Shown: positions 1,325 to 47,816 of the stretch, in pieces
Layout: every line of letters starts with the position of its first letter
Numbering within the stretch: position 1 is the stretch's first letter
Assembly: GCA_016763755.1 (NCBI GenBank)
Contig: JAESTD010000245.1
Span: 1-47,816, forward strand
Length of the DNA: 47,816 nt
Source: Mucilaginibacter sp.
GTDB lineage: Bacteria; Bacteroidota; Bacteroidia; Sphingobacteriales; Sphingobacteriaceae
Direction of reading: 5' to 3'
The notes under the pieces: generated by a model
What the model was told of the DNA's origin: nothing
What the model saw: only the letters and a program-made list of their open reading frames with translations
Databases searched by the model: none
Translations under genes and position numbers: made by a program

Positions 1325-1362
1325 AATCAATAAAAGGCGAAGAGCGGGACTCTTTCCCAGCG

Positions 1363-1447
1363 CGTTATTGCGAGGTACGAAGCAGTCTTTACATAGGCAG
1401 GTCGGCCCTCTATGGTTCGGAGATTGCTTCGTACCTCATAATGACGC
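1363..1447. repeat. Palindromic intergenic repeat, ATTGCGAGG family
   Basis: The arm GTTATTGCGAGGTACGAAGC (from about 1364) pairs with the inverted copy around 1419-1447, which reads GAGATTGCTTCGTACCTCAT. The 13-base core GAGGTACGAAGCA is perfect in both arms. The same head sequence, in variant form, recurs near 8418, 13218, 47534 and 47706. Confidence 0.75.
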
Positions 1448-1502
1448 AGGATTTTTCGCTAATTCCACTATAATTTGGACGTTTCATCAAATCTATTTAC
1501 AA

Positions 1503-1522
1503 TTGCGTAATTGATTACGTAA
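1503..1522 (+). promoter_or_regulatory. Probable MarR operator (inverted repeat)
   Basis: TTGCGTAAT (1503-1511), a 2-base spacer, and ATTACGTAA (1514-1522) form a 9-bp inverted repeat with one mismatch. It ends 8 bases before the ATG of the MarR-GNAT gene. The size, symmetry and position fit an autoregulatory site of a dimeric MarR-type winged-helix protein. Binding by the neighbouring gene product is inference. Confidence 0.55.
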
Positions 1523-1530
1523 TTAATATT

Positions 1531-2475
1531 ATGGAATTTTATAACAAAGTAGGCAAAATGGCTTTGGGAAGCCGTTTACGAAGATTAAGCGAAAAGCTAA
1601 GCGACCAAGCAAGTGAAGTTTACAGCCTTTATAACATAGAAATGAACCCGAAATGGTTTCCGGTATTTTATTCACTGGCAGAGGGAGAGAACAAATCTAT
1701 TATGCAGATAGCGCAGGAGATTGGGCATTCGCATCCATCGGTGAGTACTATCGCTAAGGAAATGATAAAAGGCGGGGTAGCTGAAGAGGTTAAAGGAACA
1801 GGAGACGCTCGTAAGAACTATATAGCCTTAACCGATAAGGGTATTGAGATCAACAAAAAAATCCAGTCGCAATATGCTGACGTAAATGCGGCGGTAGAAA
1901 GTGCCATGGCCGAGAGCCAGTATAACATCTGGAAAGCCATCGAAGAATGGGAGTTTCTGTTGGAGCAAAAGAGCTTGCTTAACCGAGTAAAAGACGAACG
2001 CAAAAAGCGCGAAAGCGCCGATGTGCAGATAGTAGATTACACTCCTGAGTACCAGCAAGCCTTCAGAGAATTGAATACAGAGTGGATCCAAACGTGGTTC
2101 AAGATGGAAGAGTCGGATTATAAAGCCTTAGATCATCCGCAGGAGTACATACTCGATAAAGGTGGCCATATATTGATTGCGCTTTACAAAAATGAACCGG
2201 TAGGTGCATGTGCGCTCATCAAAATGGATAACGATATGTTTGAGCTGGCTAAAATGGCTGTATCCCCAAAAACGAAAGGAATGGGTATAGGCTACCTGTT
2301 AGGGCAAGCCTGTATCGCCAAAGCAAACAGCCTGGGTGCCAAAAAGCTTTACCTCGAAAGTAATACCATTCTTAAACCCGCTATTAGCCTGTACCATAAA
2401 CTGGGTTTTAAGAAAATAACGGGGGTACCATCACCGTATGAGCGTTGTAATATTCAGATGGAGTTGGAATTGTGA
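1531..2475 (+). CDS. MarR-type regulator fused to GNAT acetyltransferase
   Basis: A 314-residue two-domain protein. Residues about 30-105 form a MarR-like winged helix (SIMQIAQEIGHSHPSVSTIA is the recognition HTH). Residues about 160-314 are a GNAT N-acetyltransferase with the acetyl-CoA loop KGMGIGYLLGQA (about 249-260) and the typical ending LYHKLGF. The fusion would couple DNA binding to acetyltransfer to a small molecule or protein whose identity is not evident. Such fusions are a recognised family in Bacteroidota. The inverted repeat 8 bases upstream suggests autoregulation. A terminator-like hairpin at 2577-2620 separates the gene from the ABC exporter downstream. Confidence 0.88.
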   Translation: MEFYNKVGKMALGSRLRRLSEKLSDQASEVYSLYNIEMNPKWFPVFYSLAEGENKSIMQIAQEIGHSHPSVSTIAKEMIKGGVAEEVKGTGDARKNYIALTDKGIEINKKIQSQYADVNAAVESAMAESQYNIWKAIEEWEFLLEQKSLLNRVKDERKKRESADVQIVDYTPEYQQAFRELNTEWIQTWFKMEESDYKALDHPQEYILDKGGHILIALYKNEPVGACALIKMDNDMFELAKMAVSPKTKGMGIGYLLGQACIAKANSLGAKKLYLESNTILKPAISLYHKLGFKKITGVPSPYERCNIQMELEL

Positions 2476-2492
2476 TCGTCAGTGCAGGGCTT

Positions 2493-2522
2493 GCCGTTGT
2501 TGGTGACAACACCAACAACGGC
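2493..2522. repeat. Perfect 13-bp hairpin
   Basis: GCCGTTGTTGGTG (2493-2505) pairs perfectly with CACCAACAACGGC (2510-2522) over a 4-base loop (ACAA). It lies just after the MarR-GNAT stop codon. No T-tract follows, so it is more likely a REP-like palindrome or mRNA 3' stabiliser than an intrinsic terminator. Confidence 0.65.
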
Positions 2523-2576
2523 TGATTAACAAAACGGTAGGTATTGAGCATCAACAAATAACCGCATTGTCATATT

Positions 2577-2620
2577 AAAGGGGATGGGCTACGCAGGCCA
2601 ATCCCTTTATTTATTTTTGC
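2577..2620 (+). terminator. Terminator-like hairpin overlapping the ABC gene promoter
   Basis: AAAGGG...GATGGGC pairs imperfectly with GGCCAATCCCTTT and is followed by TATTTATTTTTG. This can end the MarR-GNAT transcript. The T-rich tail also contains TATTTTTG (2612-2619), an exact -7 box match 12 bases before the ATG at 2632. This dual use argues against the more upstream ATG at 2584 as the start of the ABC gene. Confidence 0.5.
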
Positions 2621-2631
2621 TCTCGAGAAAA

Positions 2632-4386
2632 ATGAATATACTTATCAGTTACCTAAAAAAACATCGCTGGATAGTTGTCCTGGCGTTGTTTTTAGCAGCA
2701 ATGAACATTGGGTTCTCGCTGCTCGATCCATATATAACCGGTCATATTGTCGATAATGTTATCGAGAAACATGGAAATTTGCAGGAGAGCGAATATCTTA
2801 ACCGTGTGCTGATGTACGTAGGTTTGGCCATCGGCGTGGCCATGGTATCGCGTATAGCTAAAAACTTCCAGGATTATTTTACCAATATCATCACCCAGAA
2901 AGTTGGTGCCGAAATGTATGCCGATGGCCTGAAACATTCGCTGGAACTGCCCTATCAGGTATTTGAAGACCAGCGTAGCGGCGAAACTTTGGGCATTTTG
3001 CAAAAAGTACGTTTGGATTGCGAGAAATTTATCACCCAATTCATCAGCATTCTTTTCGTATCCATTATCGGGATGGTGTTTGTAATGGTGTATTCGGTAT
3101 CTATCAGCTACCAGGTATTACTGGTTTACTTCGCCGCAATTCCTATTATCTCGTTTGTGAGCATGGCCATGAGCCGCCGGATCAAACGCATCCAGAAAAA
3201 CATCGTTGCCGAAACTACCGCCTTAGCGGGTTCAACTACAGAATCATTAAGGAATATCGAACTCATCAAAAGTTTGGGATTAGCCAAGCAGGAAATTGCA
3301 CGCCTGAATACAACTACTTACAAGATATTAGATCTTGAGTTAAAGAAAGTAAAGTATGTGCGCAGCATGAGCTTTGTGCAGGGTACTACAGTTAACCTGG
3401 TGCGAAGCGCCATGGTGGTGGTTTTATTGATGCTGATTTTTAAAGGTAATATCTCAGCCGGTCAGTATTTTACTTTCCTTTTCTACTCGTTCTTCTTGTT
3501 TAACCCATTGCAGGAATTGGGTAACGTTATCCTGAGCTGGCGCGAAGCTGAGGTATCATTAGGTAATTTTAAAAAGATATTGAGCACACCTATTGATAAA
3601 AAGCCAGAAAAACCGGTGTTGTTGGAGAAAGTACACAAGCTTACTTTCGATGATGTAAGCTTTCAACATCTTACAGCTAACCGTAAGGCACTTACTCATA
3701 TTAGCTTTAAGGTAAACACCGGCGAAACCATCGCCTTTGTTGGGCCGTCGGGTTCAGGTAAAACCACACTGGTGAAGTTGCTGGTGGGGCTGTATCAACC
3801 CGGCGAAGGTGATGTGCTTTACAATGACACCCCGAGCAAAGAGATAGACCTTGACCAATTACGCGAAAAAATTGGTTTTGTAACGCAGGATACGCAGCTA
3901 TTCTCGGGTACCATTCGAGAGAACTTATTGTTTGTGCGTCCTGATGCCTCTGATGAGGAGTGCTTGATCGTATTGCAACGTGCAGCCTGCCAAACGCTGA
4001 TGGCCCGAGCCGATAAAGGCTTGGATACCGTAATTGGCGAAGGCGGCGTAAAAGTATCAGGTGGCGAAAAGCAACGCTTATCTATCGCCCGCGCCTTGCT
4101 GCGCAGGCCGGATATCCTGGTATTTGACGAAGCAACTTCATCGCTGGATTCGATAACCGAAGAAGAGATAACCGATACCATCCGCGATGTCTCTGTGTTG
4201 AATGACCATATTACTATCCTGATAGCACACCGTCTCTCAACCATTATGCATGCTGATTGCATCTACGTTTTAGAAAAAGGCAACATTATAGAAGCAGGCA
4301 AACACCACGATCTGTTAGACCAGAAGGGTCTTTACTACGCCATGTGGCGCCAGCAAATAGGCGAGAAGCATACGGTGGATGCATAG
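2632..4386 (+). CDS. ABC exporter half-transporter (membrane domain plus ATPase)
   Basis: A 584-residue type IV ABC exporter subunit in the inner membrane, probably working as a homodimer. Residues about 15-310 hold the six-helix membrane domain. The ATPase domain follows with Walker A GPSGSGKTT (371-379), signature SGGEKQR (from 476), Walker B ILVFDEAT (catalytic E500) and the H-loop histidine (H533). The substrate is unknown; family members export lipids, drugs or peptides. An in-frame ATG lies 48 bases upstream at 2584, but it sits inside a hairpin and upstream of a -7 box, so 2632 is preferred. The gene stands alone and is convergent with the anti-sigma gene. Confidence 0.93.
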   Translation: MNILISYLKKHRWIVVLALFLAAMNIGFSLLDPYITGHIVDNVIEKHGNLQESEYLNRVLMYVGLAIGVAMVSRIAKNFQDYFTNIITQKVGAEMYADGLKHSLELPYQVFEDQRSGETLGILQKVRLDCEKFITQFISILFVSIIGMVFVMVYSVSISYQVLLVYFAAIPIISFVSMAMSRRIKRIQKNIVAETTALAGSTTESLRNIELIKSLGLAKQEIARLNTTTYKILDLELKKVKYVRSMSFVQGTTVNLVRSAMVVVLLMLIFKGNISAGQYFTFLFYSFFLFNPLQELGNVILSWREAEVSLGNFKKILSTPIDKKPEKPVLLEKVHKLTFDDVSFQHLTANRKALTHISFKVNTGETIAFVGPSGSGKTTLVKLLVGLYQPGEGDVLYNDTPSKEIDLDQLREKIGFVTQDTQLFSGTIRENLLFVRPDASDEECLIVLQRAACQTLMARADKGLDTVIGEGGVKVSGGEKQRLSIARALLRRPDILVFDEATSSLDSITEEEITDTIRDVSVLNDHITILIAHRLSTIMHADCIYVLEKGNIIEAGKHHDLLDQKGLYYAMWRQQIGEKHTVDA

Positions 4387-39657: not shown

Positions 39658-40244
39658 ATGTACGACTATATTGATGGTAAATTGGCCTTTAAAAGCGCTG
39701 CTTATGTGGTAATTGATGCCGGAGGCGTTGGTTATCAGATCAATATATCGTTAAATACCTATTCGTTGCTTGGCGATAGGGAGCGTTGTAAGCTATACAC
39801 ATGGCTGCACGTGAAAGAAGATGCCCATACACTTTATGGTTTTGCCGATGCAGGAGAGCGAAAGCTTTTCCTGCATCTTGTATCCATATCAGGCATTGGG
39901 CCAAACACAGCAAGGATGATGCTCTCATCCATTACTCCGGCCGAGATACAAACGGCTATTGTGCAGGGCAATGTTGCGCTTATAAAAAGCATTAAGGGCA
40001 TAGGCCCAAAGTCAGCCCAACGTATTATATTAGAGTTACAGGATAACTGAAAAAAGAAGGTCCGGATAGTTTAATTGCAAGCCCGGTGGGGGTAAAAACG
40101 GTAAAAGAAGAGGCATTATCTGCCCTTGTTATGCTTGGTTTTGTACGCAACGTTGCAGAGAAAGTTCTGGATCAGGAGATAAGCAAAAATGCAGGGGAAT
40201 TAACTGTAGAGCAGCTTATCAAATACGCGCTTAAGAACTTATAA
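39658..40244 (+). pseudogene. ruvA: Holliday junction branch-migration protein RuvA, frameshifted
   Basis: The first 130 residues (to the TGA at 40048) are domains I and II of RuvA: the N-terminal OB fold (YIDGKLAFKSAAYVVIDAGG) and the helix-hairpin-helix pairs (SGIGPNTARMML, KGIGPKSAQRIILELQD). The reading frame then breaks, but the next frame continues exactly as domain III (KKEGPDSLIASPVG, EEALSALVMLGF, ending YALKNL at 40244), the part that contacts RuvB. Adding one A to the AA after GAT near 40045 restores a 195-residue protein of normal length. Either a recent one-base deletion or a sequencing error explains this. As written, the product could bind junctions but not drive RuvB. Confidence 0.88.
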
Positions 40245-40265
40245 TTACCGATTTAAGACACGAAC

Positions 40266-43200
40266 TTGGTTAAAATTTTTACTACTAAGCTTTTTGTAGT
40301 TATACTTCTTGTATCTGCTTTAAGCGGGGTAGGAAAGCTATATGCGCAGCAAACGCAGCAGCCAACATCAGTTCCAAACCAACAACCAAGCCAGTATCCG
40401 GCCCAGCAAGGGCAGCAACAATATCCAACGCAACAAGGCCAGCAGTTTCCAAACAGGCAGCAGCAATATCCTAATCAGCAAAACGCCAACCAATCGCAGC
40501 AACAACCTGTTAACCAGCAGGCCCGGCCCGGCCAAACACCTGTGCAGGCACAGCCCCAACAGGAAGGCTCGCCAACACAACAAGCTCGTGCTGATACCGG
40601 TTTCAAGCCCGGCCCTATACAACTTCGCGAAGCGACATCAAAAAGAGAGCGCTCTGGTTTATTTTTTAAAGACCCACCCGGTTTGGTACGAACGGTGGAG
40701 TATGATCCTGCCACCAACCGCTATATTCTTTATGAACGTTTAGGCAGCCTTAATTATCGGCCACCTCAGTATTTAACTTTTACCGAATATTTACTATTAC
40801 AGCAACGCAGCGTAAAGCGCGAGTATTTTCAACAGCTGTCAGACAATTACGCGTTTGATTCGGCGCAGCCTGGTTTTATCCCGCAAATACGTGTTCGCAG
40901 CAAAACCTTTGAGCAGATATTTGGCAGCTCGGCCATCAATATACGCCCACAGGGTTCGGCAGAAGTGATATTGGCCGGGCAGATCAGCAAGAACCAGAAC
41001 CCGCTGTTTAATACCCGCCAGCGTAATCAGTTCAATTTTAATTTTGACCAGCGCATTCAGCTAAATGTTACCGGCGATATCGGTGATAAGCTAAAGATCA
41101 CCACCAACTATAATACCCAGGCGCAGTTTCAGTTTGAGAACCAGATAAAACTGGATTACACCGGCCATCCCGATGAGATCATTCAAAAAATTGAGGCCGG
41201 TACCGTGAGCATGCCGCTGAACACTACGCTGATAACCGGCAGTCAGGCATTGTTCGGTGTTAAAACCAAGCTGAAATTTGGCCGTTTGGATGTAACCAGT
41301 ATTTTTTCGCAACAGCGTTCGCAGTCAAAAAATATTACGATCACCAATGGCTCGCAGCAAGGTAATATCTCCATCACTGCTGCAGATTACGAAGCTAATA
41401 AACACTACTTCCTGTCGCAGTATTTTAGAAATAACTACAACCGTGCGCTGGCTAATATCCCGATCATCAGTTCAAACATCACCATTACAAAAATTGAGGT
41501 TTGGACAACCAATCGTACCAGCGTAACTACCGATTCGCGCGATATATTGGCTTTCATTGACCTGGGTGAGAACAAGCCCTATAACCCTCAATTTACAGGC
41601 GCAGGGTTTAGCGGTTACCCGGCAGGTTTCCAGGGGCCGGGCTTCCCGCAGCAGTCAAATAACTTGTTAACCAGTCTGCCAGCCGGCGCGCGTAATACCA
41701 ACTCAAATGATGTTGCCAACTATTTCAGGGCCACGGGTGCTACTGATAACTATGCCAAGCTAACCTATGCCCGTAAGCTAAAGGATAACGAGTTTACCCT
41801 GCATCCGCAATTGGGTTATATCTCGCTGAATTATCCGCTAAACAACGACGAGGTTTTGGCCGTAGCTTACCAATATACTGTAAACGGCGTGCAGTACCAG
41901 GTAGGTGAGTTTAGCAGCGACAGGGCAGTGAACACTGCTACCCCGCAGGTGCTTTACACCAAGCTCCTTAAAAACGAATTGCTTAAAACCAGCCTGCCAA
42001 CCTGGGATCTGATGATGAAAAACATCTACTCGTTAGGAGCAAGCCAGATTAGCCCTACTAATTTTAAGCTTAATGTTTCTCGCCTGGATGATAAATCGGG
42101 CATAGAGAAAAGCATAATGGACGAGGGCACTAACACCAAAAGTAAGCGCTGGCTGCAGATAACCGGGTTGGATAACCTTAACCAGCAGAACGATAAAAGC
42201 CCCGATGGTTTCTTCGACTTTTTGGAAGGCATTACTATTGATTCGCAGAACGGGCGCATCATGTTCCCAACCATTGAGCCTTTTGGCAGCGACCTTGCTA
42301 AACAATTTACCGTTGCGGAAGCTGACCTGAACTCGAGGTATGTTTACCAGCCCTTGTACGACTCAACAAAGACCATCGCGCAGCAGCTATTCCCAAAATT
42401 GAACCGGTATGTTATCAAGGGAACATATACGGGCCAAAACGGATCAGAATACCAATTAAATGCAGTGAATGTTCCGCAAGGTTCTGTAGTGGTAACAGCA
42501 GGTAATTTGAAATTACAGGAAGGTACAGATTATACCATCGATTACAGCTCGGGCCGTTTGCGGATGCTGAACCAGGCATTGTTACAATCGGGCCAGCCTA
42601 TCAATATCAAATTGGAGAACAACGAGCTTTTTGGTGTGCAGCAAAAATCGTTATGGGGTACACGGCTTGATTATCACGTAAACCCTAAACTTGCATTGGG
42701 GGCAACTATGATGCACCTCACCGAGCAGCCCCTAAATCAAAACGAAATTGTAGGGCAGGAATCTATTTCCAACACTATCTGGGGATTTGATGCCAATTAC
42801 AGTTCCGAATCGAGGTTCCTTACAAAGCTGGTTGATAAGATCCCGTTCATTCATACCAAAGCACCATCAACCATTAATTTTAGCGGCGAGTTTGCCCAGT
42901 TAAAGCCGGGCAGCCCAAGCGCGCTTAACTTTGCCGGCTCAAAAAACGGTACATCATACCTGGACGATTTTGAGAACAGCCGTACCGTTATTGATATTAA
43001 AGGCGCGTTGAACTGGCAGCTCTCGGGCACACCGCAAATGTTCCCCGAGTCGAATACGTTTGATGACCTGAGTTATGGCTTTAACCGTGCAAGGTTAGCC
43101 TACTACAACATAGACCCTATATTTTACACCAATTCGGGCAATATCCCGGTATCGCGAAATGATCTTTCTAATCACTACGTAAGGCAGGTTCTTGAGCAGG

Positions 43201-46200
43201 AAGTTTTTCCATATAAGCAATCCACAACCGGGCAGCCGCTTAGTTTGGCTACGCTGAACATGGCGTTTTACCCTACTGTTCGTGGTCCATACAACTACAC
43301 CACTACCGGTATCAATACTGATGGTACTTTGCAAAATCCGCGCAGCCGCTGGGGTGGTATGTTCCGCAAGCTGGAAACCAACGACTTTGAATCGCTTAAC
43401 GTAGGCTACATTGAGTTCTGGATGATGGATCCGTTTATTTACAAACCAAACTCAGTAGGTGGCGATCTGTATTTTAACCTTGGTAGTGTATCTGAAGATA
43501 TTTTGAAAGACGGCCGCAAAAGTTTAGAAAACGCTCTGCCGGTTGATGGTACCACAGCCGATAAAGTGGACGAAACCAACTGGGGCCGCGTATCAAAACT
43601 ACAGCCTGTTGTAAACGCATTTGACAACGATCCTAATAACCGCCGACTGCAGGATATTGGTTTGGATGGTTTGAACGATGCCGACGAGAAGACCAAGTTT
43701 GCGCCTATGCTGCAGCAAACGCAAGGGCTGTTAAACCCGCAAGCTGCTGCATCGTTAAGCGCCGACCCTTCATCAGATAACTACCAATACTACCAGGGTG
43801 CAGCACTTGACCAGGCACGCGCGGGTATCTTGGAACGCTATAGCCGTTACAACGGTACAGAGGGTAACTCTAAAACAGCAGAGCAATCGCAAGCCGAATT
43901 GGGTATCCAGACCTCGGCATCAACTTCGTTGCCGGACGGTGAGGATATTAACCGCGATAATAACATGAGTCAGGCCGATGAGTATTATCAGTATCGCGTA
44001 TCTATTCGTCCGCAAGATCTGGTGATCGGTCAAAACTACATCAACGATAAGATTACAGCTAATGTAAAGCTGCCAAACGGAACTACGCAGGCAGTTACCT
44101 GGTACCAGTTCCGTGTGCCGATTACTGATTATAGCAGCAAGGTGGGTAACATCCAGGATTTTAAGGCCATCCGTTTTATGCGGATGTTTATGACCAACTT
44201 TGCGGATACTGCAGTGCTGCGTTTTGCAACCCTGCAATTAGCCAGCAGCGAATGGCGTACATTTAATGCTGAAAATAACCCCATCAACGTTATTGCCGAT
44301 CCTGCCATCACCAATCCGGTGAATGACGGCTCGGTACTGGATGTGCAAGCCGTTAACATTGAGGAGAATGGTAATCGCACACCAATACCTTATGTGGTAC
44401 CACCGGGCATTAACCGCCAGCGTAATTATAACAACCTGCAAACCGATACCAAGCTAAACGAGCAATCGCTATCGCTGAACGTAACCAACTTGCGCGATGG
44501 TTACTCGAGGGCTGCCTTCCGTACTTTTTATAACGACCTGCGATCATATAAACGCGTGCAGATGTTTATCCACGCCGAGGGTGATCAGTTGAAAAATAAC
44601 GACCTGAATGCCTTTGTACGTTTTGGGGTGGATTATCAGGATAACTATTACGAGTACGAGCTACCGCTGGCCATTACCCAGCCGGGCACCCGCGAACCGG
44701 GCGCAATATGGCCATCGGTGAACGAGTTGAATTTAGAGTTATCGATCCTGACAGATGCAAAACTGGCCCGTAACAATGCCAAGCTTAACGGGCAGCCCTG
44801 GCCGTTTACCGTGCCGTTTGTTTATACCGATGGCGCCAATAAAGTAACCATAAAAGGCCAGCCCGATCTGAGCCGTTTGCGTACCATTATGCTGGGTGTG
44901 CGCAATCCATTTAAGGCCAACAGCCTAAGCGCCGATGACGGATTAAATAAAACAGGTACAGTTTGGTTTGATGAATTACGTCTTACCGACTTTGATCAGC
45001 GGGGCGGTTGGGCAGCTACCGCAAGGGTAGATGCGACACTGGCAGATTTTGCCAACATTACAGTATCCGGCAGTAAAAGTACCATAGGCTTTGGTACGCT
45101 GGATTCGCGGGTGAGCGACCGCAACCGTAGCGACAACCAGATCATCGACGCATCAGCAAGTGTGGAGTTGGGTAAATTCTTCCCGGAGAAAAGCGGTATC
45201 CGGATCCCGGCTTATGTGAACATATCCACCCAAAAAAGTACGCCGCAGTATGACCCCGGCATGCCCGATGTGGAACTAAAGAAATCGTTAGCGGCAGCAC
45301 CAACCAACCAAGCACGCGACTCGATTAAAAACGTATCCGAAGATTTTACCGTGCGTAAAAGCATCAACTTTACAAACGTGCATAAAGAGCGTACCGACCC
45401 ATCTGCAACAACACACGTGTGGGATGTTGAAAACTTTGCAGCTACATACGCCTACACTGAATATCGCCACCACGATTTTATTGTGGAGAATGATATGGCA
45501 AAAACCTATCGCGTGGCGCTAAACTATAATTACACTAACGAGCCTAAGTTTATTACACCGTTCGCCAAGATCATCAAAAGTAATCTGTTGGCGTTGGCGC
45601 GGGATTTTAATTTCAGTATCCTGCCATCAAGGTTAAATTTCAGCATTAATTTCGACAGGTTCTATTCTGAAAACACCCTGCGCAATAACGACCCTAACAA
45701 CTATATCCCTATCCCAACATCGTTTAACAAAAACTTCAACATTACCCGCGTTTATGGCATCGGCTGGAATTTATCCAAATCATTGTCGCTGGATATTGAC
45801 GCGACCAATCTATCCGTTGTTGACGAACCAATGGGGCGCATAACCGGTTTAAAACGCGATACCCTTTGGGACAACCTGATGCGTCTTGGTCGTACCATTA
45901 ACTACAACCACACCATAAACATCAACTATACTACGCCTATAAATAAAGTACCCGGGCTGGAGTGGACGGCTTTAACAGCGCGTTACAGTACTAACTTTAA
46001 CTGGCAATCGCAACCTACGTTTGCTATTAATAACCCAACCTATGATGTGGGTAACAGTATCCAGAATGCTCGTACCATTCAATTAAATCCTAACCTCAAC
46101 TTTGCTAATTTTTACAATAAGTTCCGTGGATTAAGAAAAGGCAATGATGAGAAAGGCGGAGCTGCCAAGATTTTCCTCGGCCTGTTAACCAGTATTAAAA

Positions 46201-47522
46201 ACATCAGCGGAACTTATACCCGTACCGAAGGAACCTTCCTGCCGGGCTATTTGCCGAAATCGAATTTCTTTGGGCAGGATCTTACTTATGATGCTCCAGG
46301 TTTGGGCTTTTTGTTGGGCTCGCAAACGGATATAAGGGCGAGGGCGATCGCCAATGGCTGGATAACCACAGATACGCTGCAAAACCAATTATTTGTAAAA
46401 TCATTTAATGAGGATATCCAATTGCGCAGTATCATTGAACCACTGCCCGATCTGCGGATTGAGCTGAGAGCTTTCCGCACACAGGATAAGAATTACCAAA
46501 CCCAGTTCAAATACCTTGAATCCAGCGGACAGATTGAAAATTTAAGCCCTGTAACATCGGGTACTTATAGTGTGTCGTTCCTATCGATAGGAACTGCTTT
46601 CTCAAAAGGCGGTGATTTAACCCGAAACTCCGAAGCTTTCCAGAAATTCCTGGATAACCGTACGGTGATCTCGCAACGTTTGGGTCTTCAAAATCCAAAT
46701 TCGGCAGGTACGGCCGACGGTTATGCCGACGGCTATGGGCCAAACGCCCAGAATGTATTAGTACCAGCCTTCCTGGCGGCGTACACGGGTAAGGATGCAG
46801 GTTCGGTAAACTTAACGCAGTTTCCTAAAATACCTATTCCTAACTGGGATATTAAATATAGCGGTTTAGCGCGCCTTCCATTATTCAGCGATCTGTTTGA
46901 TTCGTTTGATCTGCGGCACGTTTACCGTTCATCATACAACGTAAGCGCCTACACCACGCTGCTGCAGTACCAGGAAGTTGCAGGCCACAGCACCACGCGT
47001 GATGCCAACCTGGACTTTTTGCCGCTATATCAATTCTCGCAGGTGAGCATCCTTGAGTCCTTCTTGCCTTTGCTGGGTGCCGATATTCGTTTTAAGAACA
47101 GTATGACTGCCAATGTTGAGTTTAGCAAGAACCGCTTCCTTAACCTGAGTATGCTGAACAGTCAGCTTACCCAACAGGACGAGAATATTGTGGTACTGGG
47201 CTTCGGTTATCGCCCTAAAAATTTCAGGATGCCATGGGGTTTATTTGGCACAGGCAACCGCGATAACAACGACGTCAACTTTAAGCTGGACGTAGCCATC
47301 CGCGATAAAAAACTGGTGATGTACCGCGCCGATGTTCCCGGCGCCGAGGTATCATCAGGTGCCGAGAACATCACCCTACGCCCGTCGATAGATTATGTGA
47401 TCAATCAGCGCTTTAATCTCAATTTGTTTTACGACAGCAACATTACTAAGCCATACACCTCGCAGGCGTTTACCACGGCGTTTACCAACTTTGGCATTAA
47501 TTTGAAGTTGTTGTTGCAATAG
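40266..47522 (+). CDS. sprA: T9SS outer-membrane translocon protein SprA
   Basis: A 2418-residue outer-membrane protein matching SprA (Sov), the giant beta-barrel pore of type IX secretion. A signal peptide (about 1-27, ending LYA) is followed by a Gln/Pro/Asn-rich stretch (about 28-110), then the conserved SprA body with a very long run of beta strands and a C-terminal strand ending FGINLKLLLQ. The size fits the family. The start is TTG at 40266: a stop codon (40254) closes the frame upstream, and later starts would lose the signal peptide. The ruvA-sprA order is conserved in Bacteroidota. The last 13 codons occur again downstream in a diverged copy. Confidence 0.95.
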   Translation: MVKIFTTKLFVVILLVSALSGVGKLYAQQTQQPTSVPNQQPSQYPAQQGQQQYPTQQGQQFPNRQQQYPNQQNANQSQQQPVNQQARPGQTPVQAQPQQEGSPTQQARADTGFKPGPIQLREATSKRERSGLFFKDPPGLVRTVEYDPATNRYILYERLGSLNYRPPQYLTFTEYLLLQQRSVKREYFQQLSDNYAFDSAQPGFIPQIRVRSKTFEQIFGSSAINIRPQGSAEVILAGQISKNQNPLFNTRQRNQFNFNFDQRIQLNVTGDIGDKLKITTNYNTQAQFQFENQIKLDYTGHPDEIIQKIEAGTVSMPLNTTLITGSQALFGVKTKLKFGRLDVTSIFSQQRSQSKNITITNGSQQGNISITAADYEANKHYFLSQYFRNNYNRALANIPIISSNITITKIEVWTTNRTSVTTDSRDILAFIDLGENKPYNPQFTGAGFSGYPAGFQGPGFPQQSNNLLTSLPAGARNTNSNDVANYFRATGATDNYAKLTYARKLKDNEFTLHPQLGYISLNYPLNNDEVLAVAYQYTVNGVQYQVGEFSSDRAVNTATPQVLYTKLLKNELLKTSLPTWDLMMKNIYSLGASQISPTNFKLNVSRLDDKSGIEKSIMDEGTNTKSKRWLQITGLDNLNQQNDKSPDGFFDFLEGITIDSQNGRIMFPTIEPFGSDLAKQFTVAEADLNSRYVYQPLYDSTKTIAQQLFPKLNRYVIKGTYTGQNGSEYQLNAVNVPQGSVVVTAGNLKLQEGTDYTIDYSSGRLRMLNQALLQSGQPINIKLENNELFGVQQKSLWGTRLDYHVNPKLALGATMMHLTEQPLNQNEIVGQESISNTIWGFDANYSSESRFLTKLVDKIPFIHTKAPSTINFSGEFAQLKPGSPSALNFAGSKNGTSYLDDFENSRTVIDIKGALNWQLSGTPQMFPESNTFDDLSYGFNRARLAYYNIDPIFYTNSGNIPVSRNDLSNHYVRQVLEQEVFPYKQSTTGQPLSLATLNMAFYPTVRGPYNYTTTGINTDGTLQNPRSRWGGMFRKLETNDFESLNVGYIEFWMMDPFIYKPNSVGGDLYFNLGSVSEDILKDGRKSLENALPVDGTTADKVDETNWGRVSKLQPVVNAFDNDPNNRRLQDIGLDGLNDADEKTKFAPMLQQTQGLLNPQAAASLSADPSSDNYQYYQGAALDQARAGILERYSRYNGTEGNSKTAEQSQAELGIQTSASTSLPDGEDINRDNNMSQADEYYQYRVSIRPQDLVIGQNYINDKITANVKLPNGTTQAVTWYQFRVPITDYSSKVGNIQDFKAIRFMRMFMTNFADTAVLRFATLQLASSEWRTFNAENNPINVIADPAITNPVNDGSVLDVQAVNIEENGNRTPIPYVVPPGINRQRNYNNLQTDTKLNEQSLSLNVTNLRDGYSRAAFRTFYNDLRSYKRVQMFIHAEGDQLKNNDLNAFVRFGVDYQDNYYEYELPLAITQPGTREPGAIWPSVNELNLELSILTDAKLARNNAKLNGQPWPFTVPFVYTDGANKVTIKGQPDLSRLRTIMLGVRNPFKANSLSADDGLNKTGTVWFDELRLTDFDQRGGWAATARVDATLADFANITVSGSKSTIGFGTLDSRVSDRNRSDNQIIDASASVELGKFFPEKSGIRIPAYVNISTQKSTPQYDPGMPDVELKKSLAAAPTNQARDSIKNVSEDFTVRKSINFTNVHKERTDPSATTHVWDVENFAATYAYTEYRHHDFIVENDMAKTYRVALNYNYTNEPKFITPFAKIIKSNLLALARDFNFSILPSRLNFSINFDRFYSENTLRNNDPNNYIPIPTSFNKNFNITRVYGIGWNLSKSLSLDIDATNLSVVDEPMGRITGLKRDTLWDNLMRLGRTINYNHTININYTTPINKVPGLEWTALTARYSTNFNWQSQPTFAINNPTYDVGNSIQNARTIQLNPNLNFANFYNKFRGLRKGNDEKGGAAKIFLGLLTSIKNISGTYTRTEGTFLPGYLPKSNFFGQDLTYDAPGLGFLLGSQTDIRARAIANGWITTDTLQNQLFVKSFNEDIQLRSIIEPLPDLRIELRAFRTQDKNYQTQFKYLESSGQIENLSPVTSGTYSVSFLSIGTAFSKGGDLTRNSEAFQKFLDNRTVISQRLGLQNPNSAGTADGYADGYGPNAQNVLVPAFLAAYTGKDAGSVNLTQFPKIPIPNWDIKYSGLARLPLFSDLFDSFDLRHVYRSSYNVSAYTTLLQYQEVAGHSTTRDANLDFLPLYQFSQVSILESFLPLLGADIRFKNSMTANVEFSKNRFLNLSMLNSQLTQQDENIVVLGFGYRPKNFRMPWGLFGTGNRDNNDVNFKLDVAIRDKKLVMYRADVPGAEVSSGAENITLRPSIDYVINQRFNLNLFYDSNITKPYTSQAFTTAFTNFGINLKLLLQ

Positions 47523-47533
47523 ACCACTTACCC

Positions 47534-47644
47534 GTCATTGCGAGGAGAGGCCTCACCTAAATCCTCTCCAAAGGAGAGGACTTTAAAAGAAATATTAGAA
47601 CCCTCTCCTTTGGAGAGGGCAGGGTGAGGCTAATCAGGCTTTCA
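47534..47644. repeat. MITE-like palindromic element, copy A
   Basis: A 111-bp noncoding element. It contains two perfect 8-bp-stem hairpins, TCCTCTCC-AAA-GGAGAGGA (47562-47580) and CCCTCTCC-TTT-GGAGAGGG (47601-47619). These are themselves inverted copies of each other inside a larger inverted repeat (GCCTCACC...GGTGAGGC). Its head GTCATTGCGAGG is shared with other intergenic palindromes in this window. It differs from copy B at only two positions. Confidence 0.85.
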
Positions 47645-47682
47645 TCAATTTTGGTATTAACTTGAAGTTGTTGTTGCAGTAA
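47641..47682 (+). pseudogene. Second, diverged copy of the sprA 3' end
   Basis: Forty-two bases encode FINFGINLKLLLQ and a stop, against FTNFGINLKLLLQ and a stop at the true sprA end (47481-47522). 35 of 42 bases agree. Six of the seven differences are at third codon positions and all seven are transitions. There is no start codon, so it cannot be expressed on its own. It is best read as the remnant of another sprA allele left at a recombination junction. Confidence 0.75.
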
Positions 47683-47705
47683 AGTACGGGGTTTTTGTAA
47701 ACTAT

Positions 47706-47816
47706 GTCATTGCGGGGAGAGGCCTCTCCTAAATCCTCTCCAAAGGAGAGGACTTTAAAAGAAATATTAGAACCCTCTCCTTTGGAGAGGGCAGGGTGAG
47801 GCTAATCAGGCTTTCA
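47706..47816. repeat. MITE-like palindromic element, copy B
   Basis: This is a second 111-bp copy, 172 bases downstream of copy A and identical at 109 of 111 positions. The window ends exactly where the copy ends, so whether a further sprA-tail copy follows cannot be seen. The 294 bases after sprA hold only the two copies, the sprA-tail remnant and short spacers. Confidence 0.85.

Follow-up and report, generated by a model that had tools for sequence, protein, structure and literature searches.

We identified a tandem cluster of REPIN-like hairpin elements directly downstream of sprA in a Mucilaginibacter sp., which, with a probability of roughly two in three, captured the last ~45 bases of the gene while it multiplied. 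The analysed stretch of DNA (the window; 47,816 nucleotides) is contig C180 of a 4.97-Mb assembly with 349 contigs and a completeness of ~87.5%. It terminates inside the array and represents the left part of a larger one. We observed the order of the parts in the window (Table 1), a predicted hairpin in the element, the same type of unit at two other genes of the genus and, in the genome G146, elements that are more uniform than the tails between them.

Table 1. Parts of the sprA locus in the window, with the basis of each assignment
Feature	Position	Strand	Basis or remark
sprA, 2418 aa, live gene	40266..47522	+	PF14349 SprA_N, E 4e-182; ORF
Tail 1, live sprA 3' end, ..AFTNFGINLKLLLQ, stop TAG	47477..47522	+	Repeat search and alignment
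Spacer s1 with the left fragment of another repeat, REP-A (CGTCATTGCGAGGA...)	47523..47549	+	Alignment
Element E1, REPIN-like hairpin GCCTCACC...GGTGAGGC	47550..47630	+	Fold z -6.9; genome copies compared
Tail 2, dead repeat of the sprA 3' end with one altered residue and stop TAA	47637..47682	+	Repeat search
Spacer s2 and REP-A left fragment	47683..47721	+	First ~23 bases unlike s1 and s3
Element E2, as E1 except for one broken hairpin pair (47727)	47722..47802	+	Fold z -5.3
Junction and start of a third tail	47803..47816	+	Continues on contig C41

SprA is an outer-membrane component of type IX secretion. By its sprA, M. conchicola is the nearest named relative of the strain (93% identity in the C-terminal 499 residues, 94% in the C-terminal 299), and the genome of the window contains a single match to the gene. 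No ORF of at least 100 aa lies 3' of sprA within the window. The tail copies probably do nothing for SprA, because the live tail has its conserved C-terminus complete. A ruvA-like ORF (window positions 39658-40266, 130 aa) is located directly 5' of sprA; it stops early and the remaining RuvA-like sequence is found in another frame, which is a frameshift, either real or due to an assembly error.

The last 42 bases of sprA (47481-47522) recur at 47641-47682 with seven differences, all of them transitions and six at third codon positions, and the encoded peptides differ in one residue (FTNFGINLKLLLQ and FINFGINLKLLLQ). The 111-bp elements (47534-47644 and 47706-47816) differ at only two of 111 positions (47543 and 47555). 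Alignment confirmed all of these figures, on which the original prediction had been built, and an independent repeat search recovered both families (45 bp and 111 bp). As first delimited, the 111-bp element extends 8 bases into the following tail; from tail to tail the distance in the window is 160 bases. The elements are significantly less diverged than the tails (2/111 versus 7/42 differences, p 0.0018). Across 26 element loci of the same genome, the direct repeat flanking the element reached z 16.4 at sprA and at most 2.9 at the others, so the repeated tail at sprA is not a chance match.

The array continues on contig C41 (5021 bp, minus strand), the first 94 bases of which are identical to the last 94 of the window (94/94). 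Since this overlap contains the T specific for E2, C41 continues E2 and not E1. It is followed by tail 3, spacer s3, an unbroken REP-A and a convergent gene without Pfam match. Tail 3 carries a 1-base deletion that results in a frameshift and a premature stop, and the spacer behind it is again of the s1 type. Over 2296 bp, C41 matches (86.5%) the M. conchicola sequence that follows sprA and is therefore very likely the true right neighbour. In M. conchicola, sprA and a gene also present on C41, which we take from its sequence to be miaB-like, are ~2.4 kb apart; by our count, the sprA stop and the gene after it are separated by 459 bases here versus 474 in M. conchicola. Extension past position 47816, as the original prediction had suggested, thus yields a third, frameshifted tail and the next gene of the M. 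conchicola order. The most likely order of the locus is sprA-tail1-s1-E1-tail2-s2-E2-tail3-s3-REP-A-next gene, read directly within the window and, for its last step, from the exact 94-base overlap and synteny. The contig break may conceal further units. Among 41 contig ends only the window and C41 overlap, so that no typical assembler word length can be read from them. A REP-like insert, 19 residues long and in frame (LSPTLSEGEG...), is present in the miaB-like gene itself (L031, positions 1338-2855, minus strand) and absent in M. conchicola; in three further relatives the length at this site differs again.

The fragmented state of the assembly (349 contigs, 87% complete), a window that ends inside a repeat and a contig break at the exact point where tails 2 and 3 first differ could all point to a chimera, in which the sprA tails of co-occurring strains were joined via the repeated element. 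However, phase is kept, as the base specific for E1 goes with tail 2 and that for E2 with tail 3, and sprA has one match only in the genome. The common E-tail junction TAATCAGGCTTTCA would have to be present in the reads, and the same architecture occurs in a genome assembled as a single contig (G146). We consider such an assembly artefact very improbable.

For both E1 and E2 a single long hairpin is the predicted fold, and none of 200 shuffled sequences was equally stable. Judged by these folding predictions, E is REPIN-like, with inverted palindromic units that would form one long hairpin. The element is dispersed, with at least 57 blast matches to the 336-bp query in its own genome, a number in which palindromic copies are counted on both strands and 40 of 107 candidates were scored. 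Its core is GCCTCACC...GGTGAGGC, several copies are nested inside REP-A (CGTCATTGCGAGG...), and, by eye, the copies are most variable in the loop. In the genus, 128 of 149 genomes match a query that holds both the E end and tail 2, and a part of these matches are therefore sprA tails only. In a genus-wide search for the E-tail junction with six candidates scored per genome, the own genome alone matched across the junction among the matches listed. At least two tandem copies with flanking DNA in the unit, the hallmark of tandem REPIN clusters, are present at sprA and elsewhere. The termini of E (GCCTCACC/GGTGAGGC) are neither a GTAG nor a CGTC tag; only the adjoining REP-A begins with CGTC. The genome (87% complete) has one match to Y1_Tnp (C7:30094-30438), and the E matches listed on that contig, at ~12.1 and 18.9 kb, are not beside it. 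Rfam families were rejected as an assignment for E, since the matches were weak, mostly to miRNA hairpins, and all below the cut-offs.

About 80-230 bases past the sprA stop, M. conchicola (L063) retains just the left half of an E-like element, followed by a different hairpin repeat (GTCATTCTGAGCGTAGCGAAGAATC). Between sprA and the convergent gene, Mucilaginibacter sp. L294 carries a transposase gene of the Y1/RAYT type (PF01797; L069:4578-5159), and in M. rigui (L070) the DNA downstream of sprA starts with similar sequence. The 3' side of sprA looks like a landing place for repeat-linked DNA.

The architecture of the sprA array, a gene 3' end, a spacer and an E-type repeat end in tandem, is found at two other genes in the genus. 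Three pattern searches of 149 genomes for exact 10-base element ends on the same strand, with gaps of 46-105, 107-166 and 168-227 bases, revealed 15 clusters. Four of them, at sprA and in the genomes G146, G129 and G133, have a gene 3' end as part of the unit and represent three genes; in ten the gene end is absent from the repeat and ORF listings, and one (L222) was outside the comparison. For five of the ten tail-free clusters ORFs of at least 80 codons were listed, and the other five have either no repeats or repeats made up of element sequence alone. At L185 (G118:C38), L184 (G079:C30) and L189 (G060), elements or halves of them are arrayed in tandem, and no gene end is seen in the unit.

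In G146, whose genome is one 5.3-Mb contig, a gene without Pfam match is followed by an array with a 92-bp period repeated 6.5 times (L178:1463-2059). Its tail, PGIIKIV and a stop codon, is present seven times and alternates with six exact copies of the right half of E. Five tails are identical to the live one (itself counted), two have diverged, and the last leads into other downstream DNA without E. Over six units all 30 element columns are invariant, whereas 18 of the 60 columns from tail and spacer vary (Fisher p 0.0004). Ten of these 30 element bases were also demanded by the pattern searches, and without them the contrast is 0/20 with p 0.004; the array had first been found by blast, before these searches. 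The original prediction assumed that tails copied by local tandem duplication could not exceed the elements in divergence. This premise fails because of the G146 array in its single-contig genome. Elements that are identical next to diverged tails can therefore arise without proven allele replacement, and this contrast comes from one array, which may or may not include allele exchange. In the diverged G146 tail two of five changes are at third positions, without coding bias, so the sprA and G146 loci differ in that respect. At the third gene, hisG, the tail MPIEKIIL with its stop codon is doubled together with the element in two species, ahead of the following gene (G129 and G133; the gene name derives from a Pfam run on the G129 protein only). 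The dead hisG tail has the genome-specific third-position base of the live copy, CCT or CCG (L186:1436-1596 and L187:1436-1596), and this common base suggests conversion or separate duplication.

The probability of about 0.007 first given for six or more of seven changes at third positions is arithmetically right (0.0069 under a share of 1/3). It presupposes, however, two copies that are both unconstrained. Since one copy is a live gene, the expected share is 0.466 and not 1/3. With the corrected expectation, the bias persists between tails 1 and 2 (6/7, p = 0.043) and between tails 1 and 3 (8/9, p = 0.012), and is not significant between tails 2 and 3 (3/5, p = 0.44). In a clock comparison with 21 of 35 named relatives, a fixed tree and 42 sites picked after the fact, a history as a coding and then dead copy is favoured over one as a dead copy since the split by 3.0 log units for tail 2 (-412.78 versus -415.79) and by 4.3 for tail 3 (-418.15 versus -422.41). 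The view that the remnant tails diverged while coding is thus weakly upheld: the comparisons with the live tail and the clock lend it modest support, and the comparison of the remnants with each other does not. Coding-like divergence would follow from recycling of tails within the array or from exchange with another strain.

Such an exchange would have brought in an sprA 3' region whose own downstream remnant tail crossed with the live tail of the resident, so that the resident's tail 2 and s2 were retired downstream, and E would have been homogenised later. Besides the coding-like divergence of both remnants, this would fit the four third-position states that tails 2 and 3 have in common with M. 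conchicola and that are absent in tail 1, the spacer s2 that differs from s1 and s3, and the position of the only second-position change of tail 2 in codon 2, close to the junction. However, the last 4.2 kb of the gene bear no obvious corresponding mark. In blocks of 60 codons the third-position divergence between the sprA genes of the strain and M. conchicola is 0.27-0.48, and the last three blocks (0.32, 0.32 and 0.29) are slightly below the six preceding ones (0.42-0.48); by eye, the scan for a breakpoint that the original prediction had proposed shows no upward step toward the 3' end in this part. Nor can tail 2 be placed off its own branch: the best branch (M. aquariorum, L071) reaches a lnL of -408.63 versus -410.76 for the own one, a difference of 2.1 log units, and from 42 bases its lineage is not assignable. 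A second tail after sprA was not found in 64 downstream regions of relatives (35 of them named, many species twice, and both 44 more distant loci and the matches beyond the first 30 loci of one search left out), where the best score was 26/42 and the mean 23.0, as in shuffled DNA (n=320, mean 22.9, maximum 28). Since there is neither an upward step nor a second tail in relatives, the last 4.2 kb of sprA show no positive sign of replacement, and uneven divergence is also present in the G146 array. We regard an allele replacement, of which the array had been taken as the footprint, as a possible though unlikely explanation of the array. A wider version is more doubtful still. According to this, REPIN-type hairpins past stop codons in Mucilaginibacter might be landing points for inter-strain recombination, at which gene 3' ends are exchanged repeatedly and retired ends are kept downstream as fossil alleles. 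If true, sprA would show two retirements.

For the tandem cluster that captured the sprA end, we propose that an element E a few bases past the stop codon was the starting arrangement. Replication slippage or template switching at the hairpin would duplicate the tail, spacer and E as one unit, and unequal recombination would alter the copy number. Repeated gene conversion among the E copies could keep these alike while the dead tails drift. A second sprA allele contributing to tail 2 and the odd spacer s2 is allowed by this scheme and not required. Against a plain duplication are the third-position bias of the remnants, which is above the expectation for dead copies in the comparisons with tail 1 and with the clock, and s2, which local duplication leaves unexplained.

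Tail 1 with s1 and tail 3 with s3 have 62 identities over 78 alignment columns, whereas s2 differs, and E lies between them. An insertion of E that duplicated an unusually long target site (~70 bp, spanning tail and spacer of sprA), and then a further round, would leave such a pattern. Elsewhere in the genome, a diverged E copy (L147, G000:C7, positions 324-402) has an exact 13-base direct repeat on both sides (z 2.8), perhaps a target-site duplication or chance. However, of the 25 other E loci tested in this genome, not one has a duplication of the length seen at sprA, and an array of six or seven copies requires some process that alters copy number in any case, which makes this origin extremely unlikely. 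The test covered 26 loci in 37 rows, from the best 30 loci and 16 further stretches, and dropped matches with less than 60 columns or less than 60 bases of flank. The idea that E generally duplicates long targets was thus rejected (0/25), and the capture of a tail by E is rare.

Similar arrangements have been found in other systems. Downstream of E. coli tyrT, 178-bp repeats carry the tRNA 3' end, and as at sprA tandem repeats past a gene each contain a copy of the gene's 3' end; tyrT, in contrast, is a tRNA gene. We know of no REPIN in the tyrT repeat unit, and our literature search found no paper on these repeats. Integrative elements may also restore a gene 3' end (attL/attR type), so that the element has a live gene end on one side and a dead one on the other. 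Unlike these, the tail-to-tail units at sprA (160-172 bp) are too short for a recombinase gene, and no ORF of at least 100 aa that could be such a gene is seen between the tail copies in the window. Closest are the tandem REPIN clusters of P. fluorescens SBW25, in which near-identical elements are repeated "including the flanking sequences" (Bertels and Rainey 2011, PMC3116915). These REPINs and E are alike as inverted palindrome pairs that form one hairpin and are in tandem with their flanks. In the sprA array, however, the upstream gene contributes its 3' end, stop codon included, to the repeated flank; the host is a Mucilaginibacter, and beside the array no transposase gene is seen. Tandem REPIN clusters with flanking DNA, the same kind of cluster as at sprA, were also reported in 2013 (PMC3733652); duplicated gene tails are not described in the covered parts of that report, and its GTAG or CGTC tags are replaced here by the E ends, with CGTC at the start of REP-A only. 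The capture of a gene end by a tandem repeat is a small, mostly known kind of rearrangement, and a search of the open-access literature found no paper on captured gene ends.

Arrays of tails and elements are fossils of the effect that REPIN-type hairpins have on their neighbourhood, and they suggest that such elements may duplicate conserved gene ends without breaking genes. In one array the flanks drift and the element part remains uniform. Such arrays also caution against taking uneven divergence within them as horizontal transfer.
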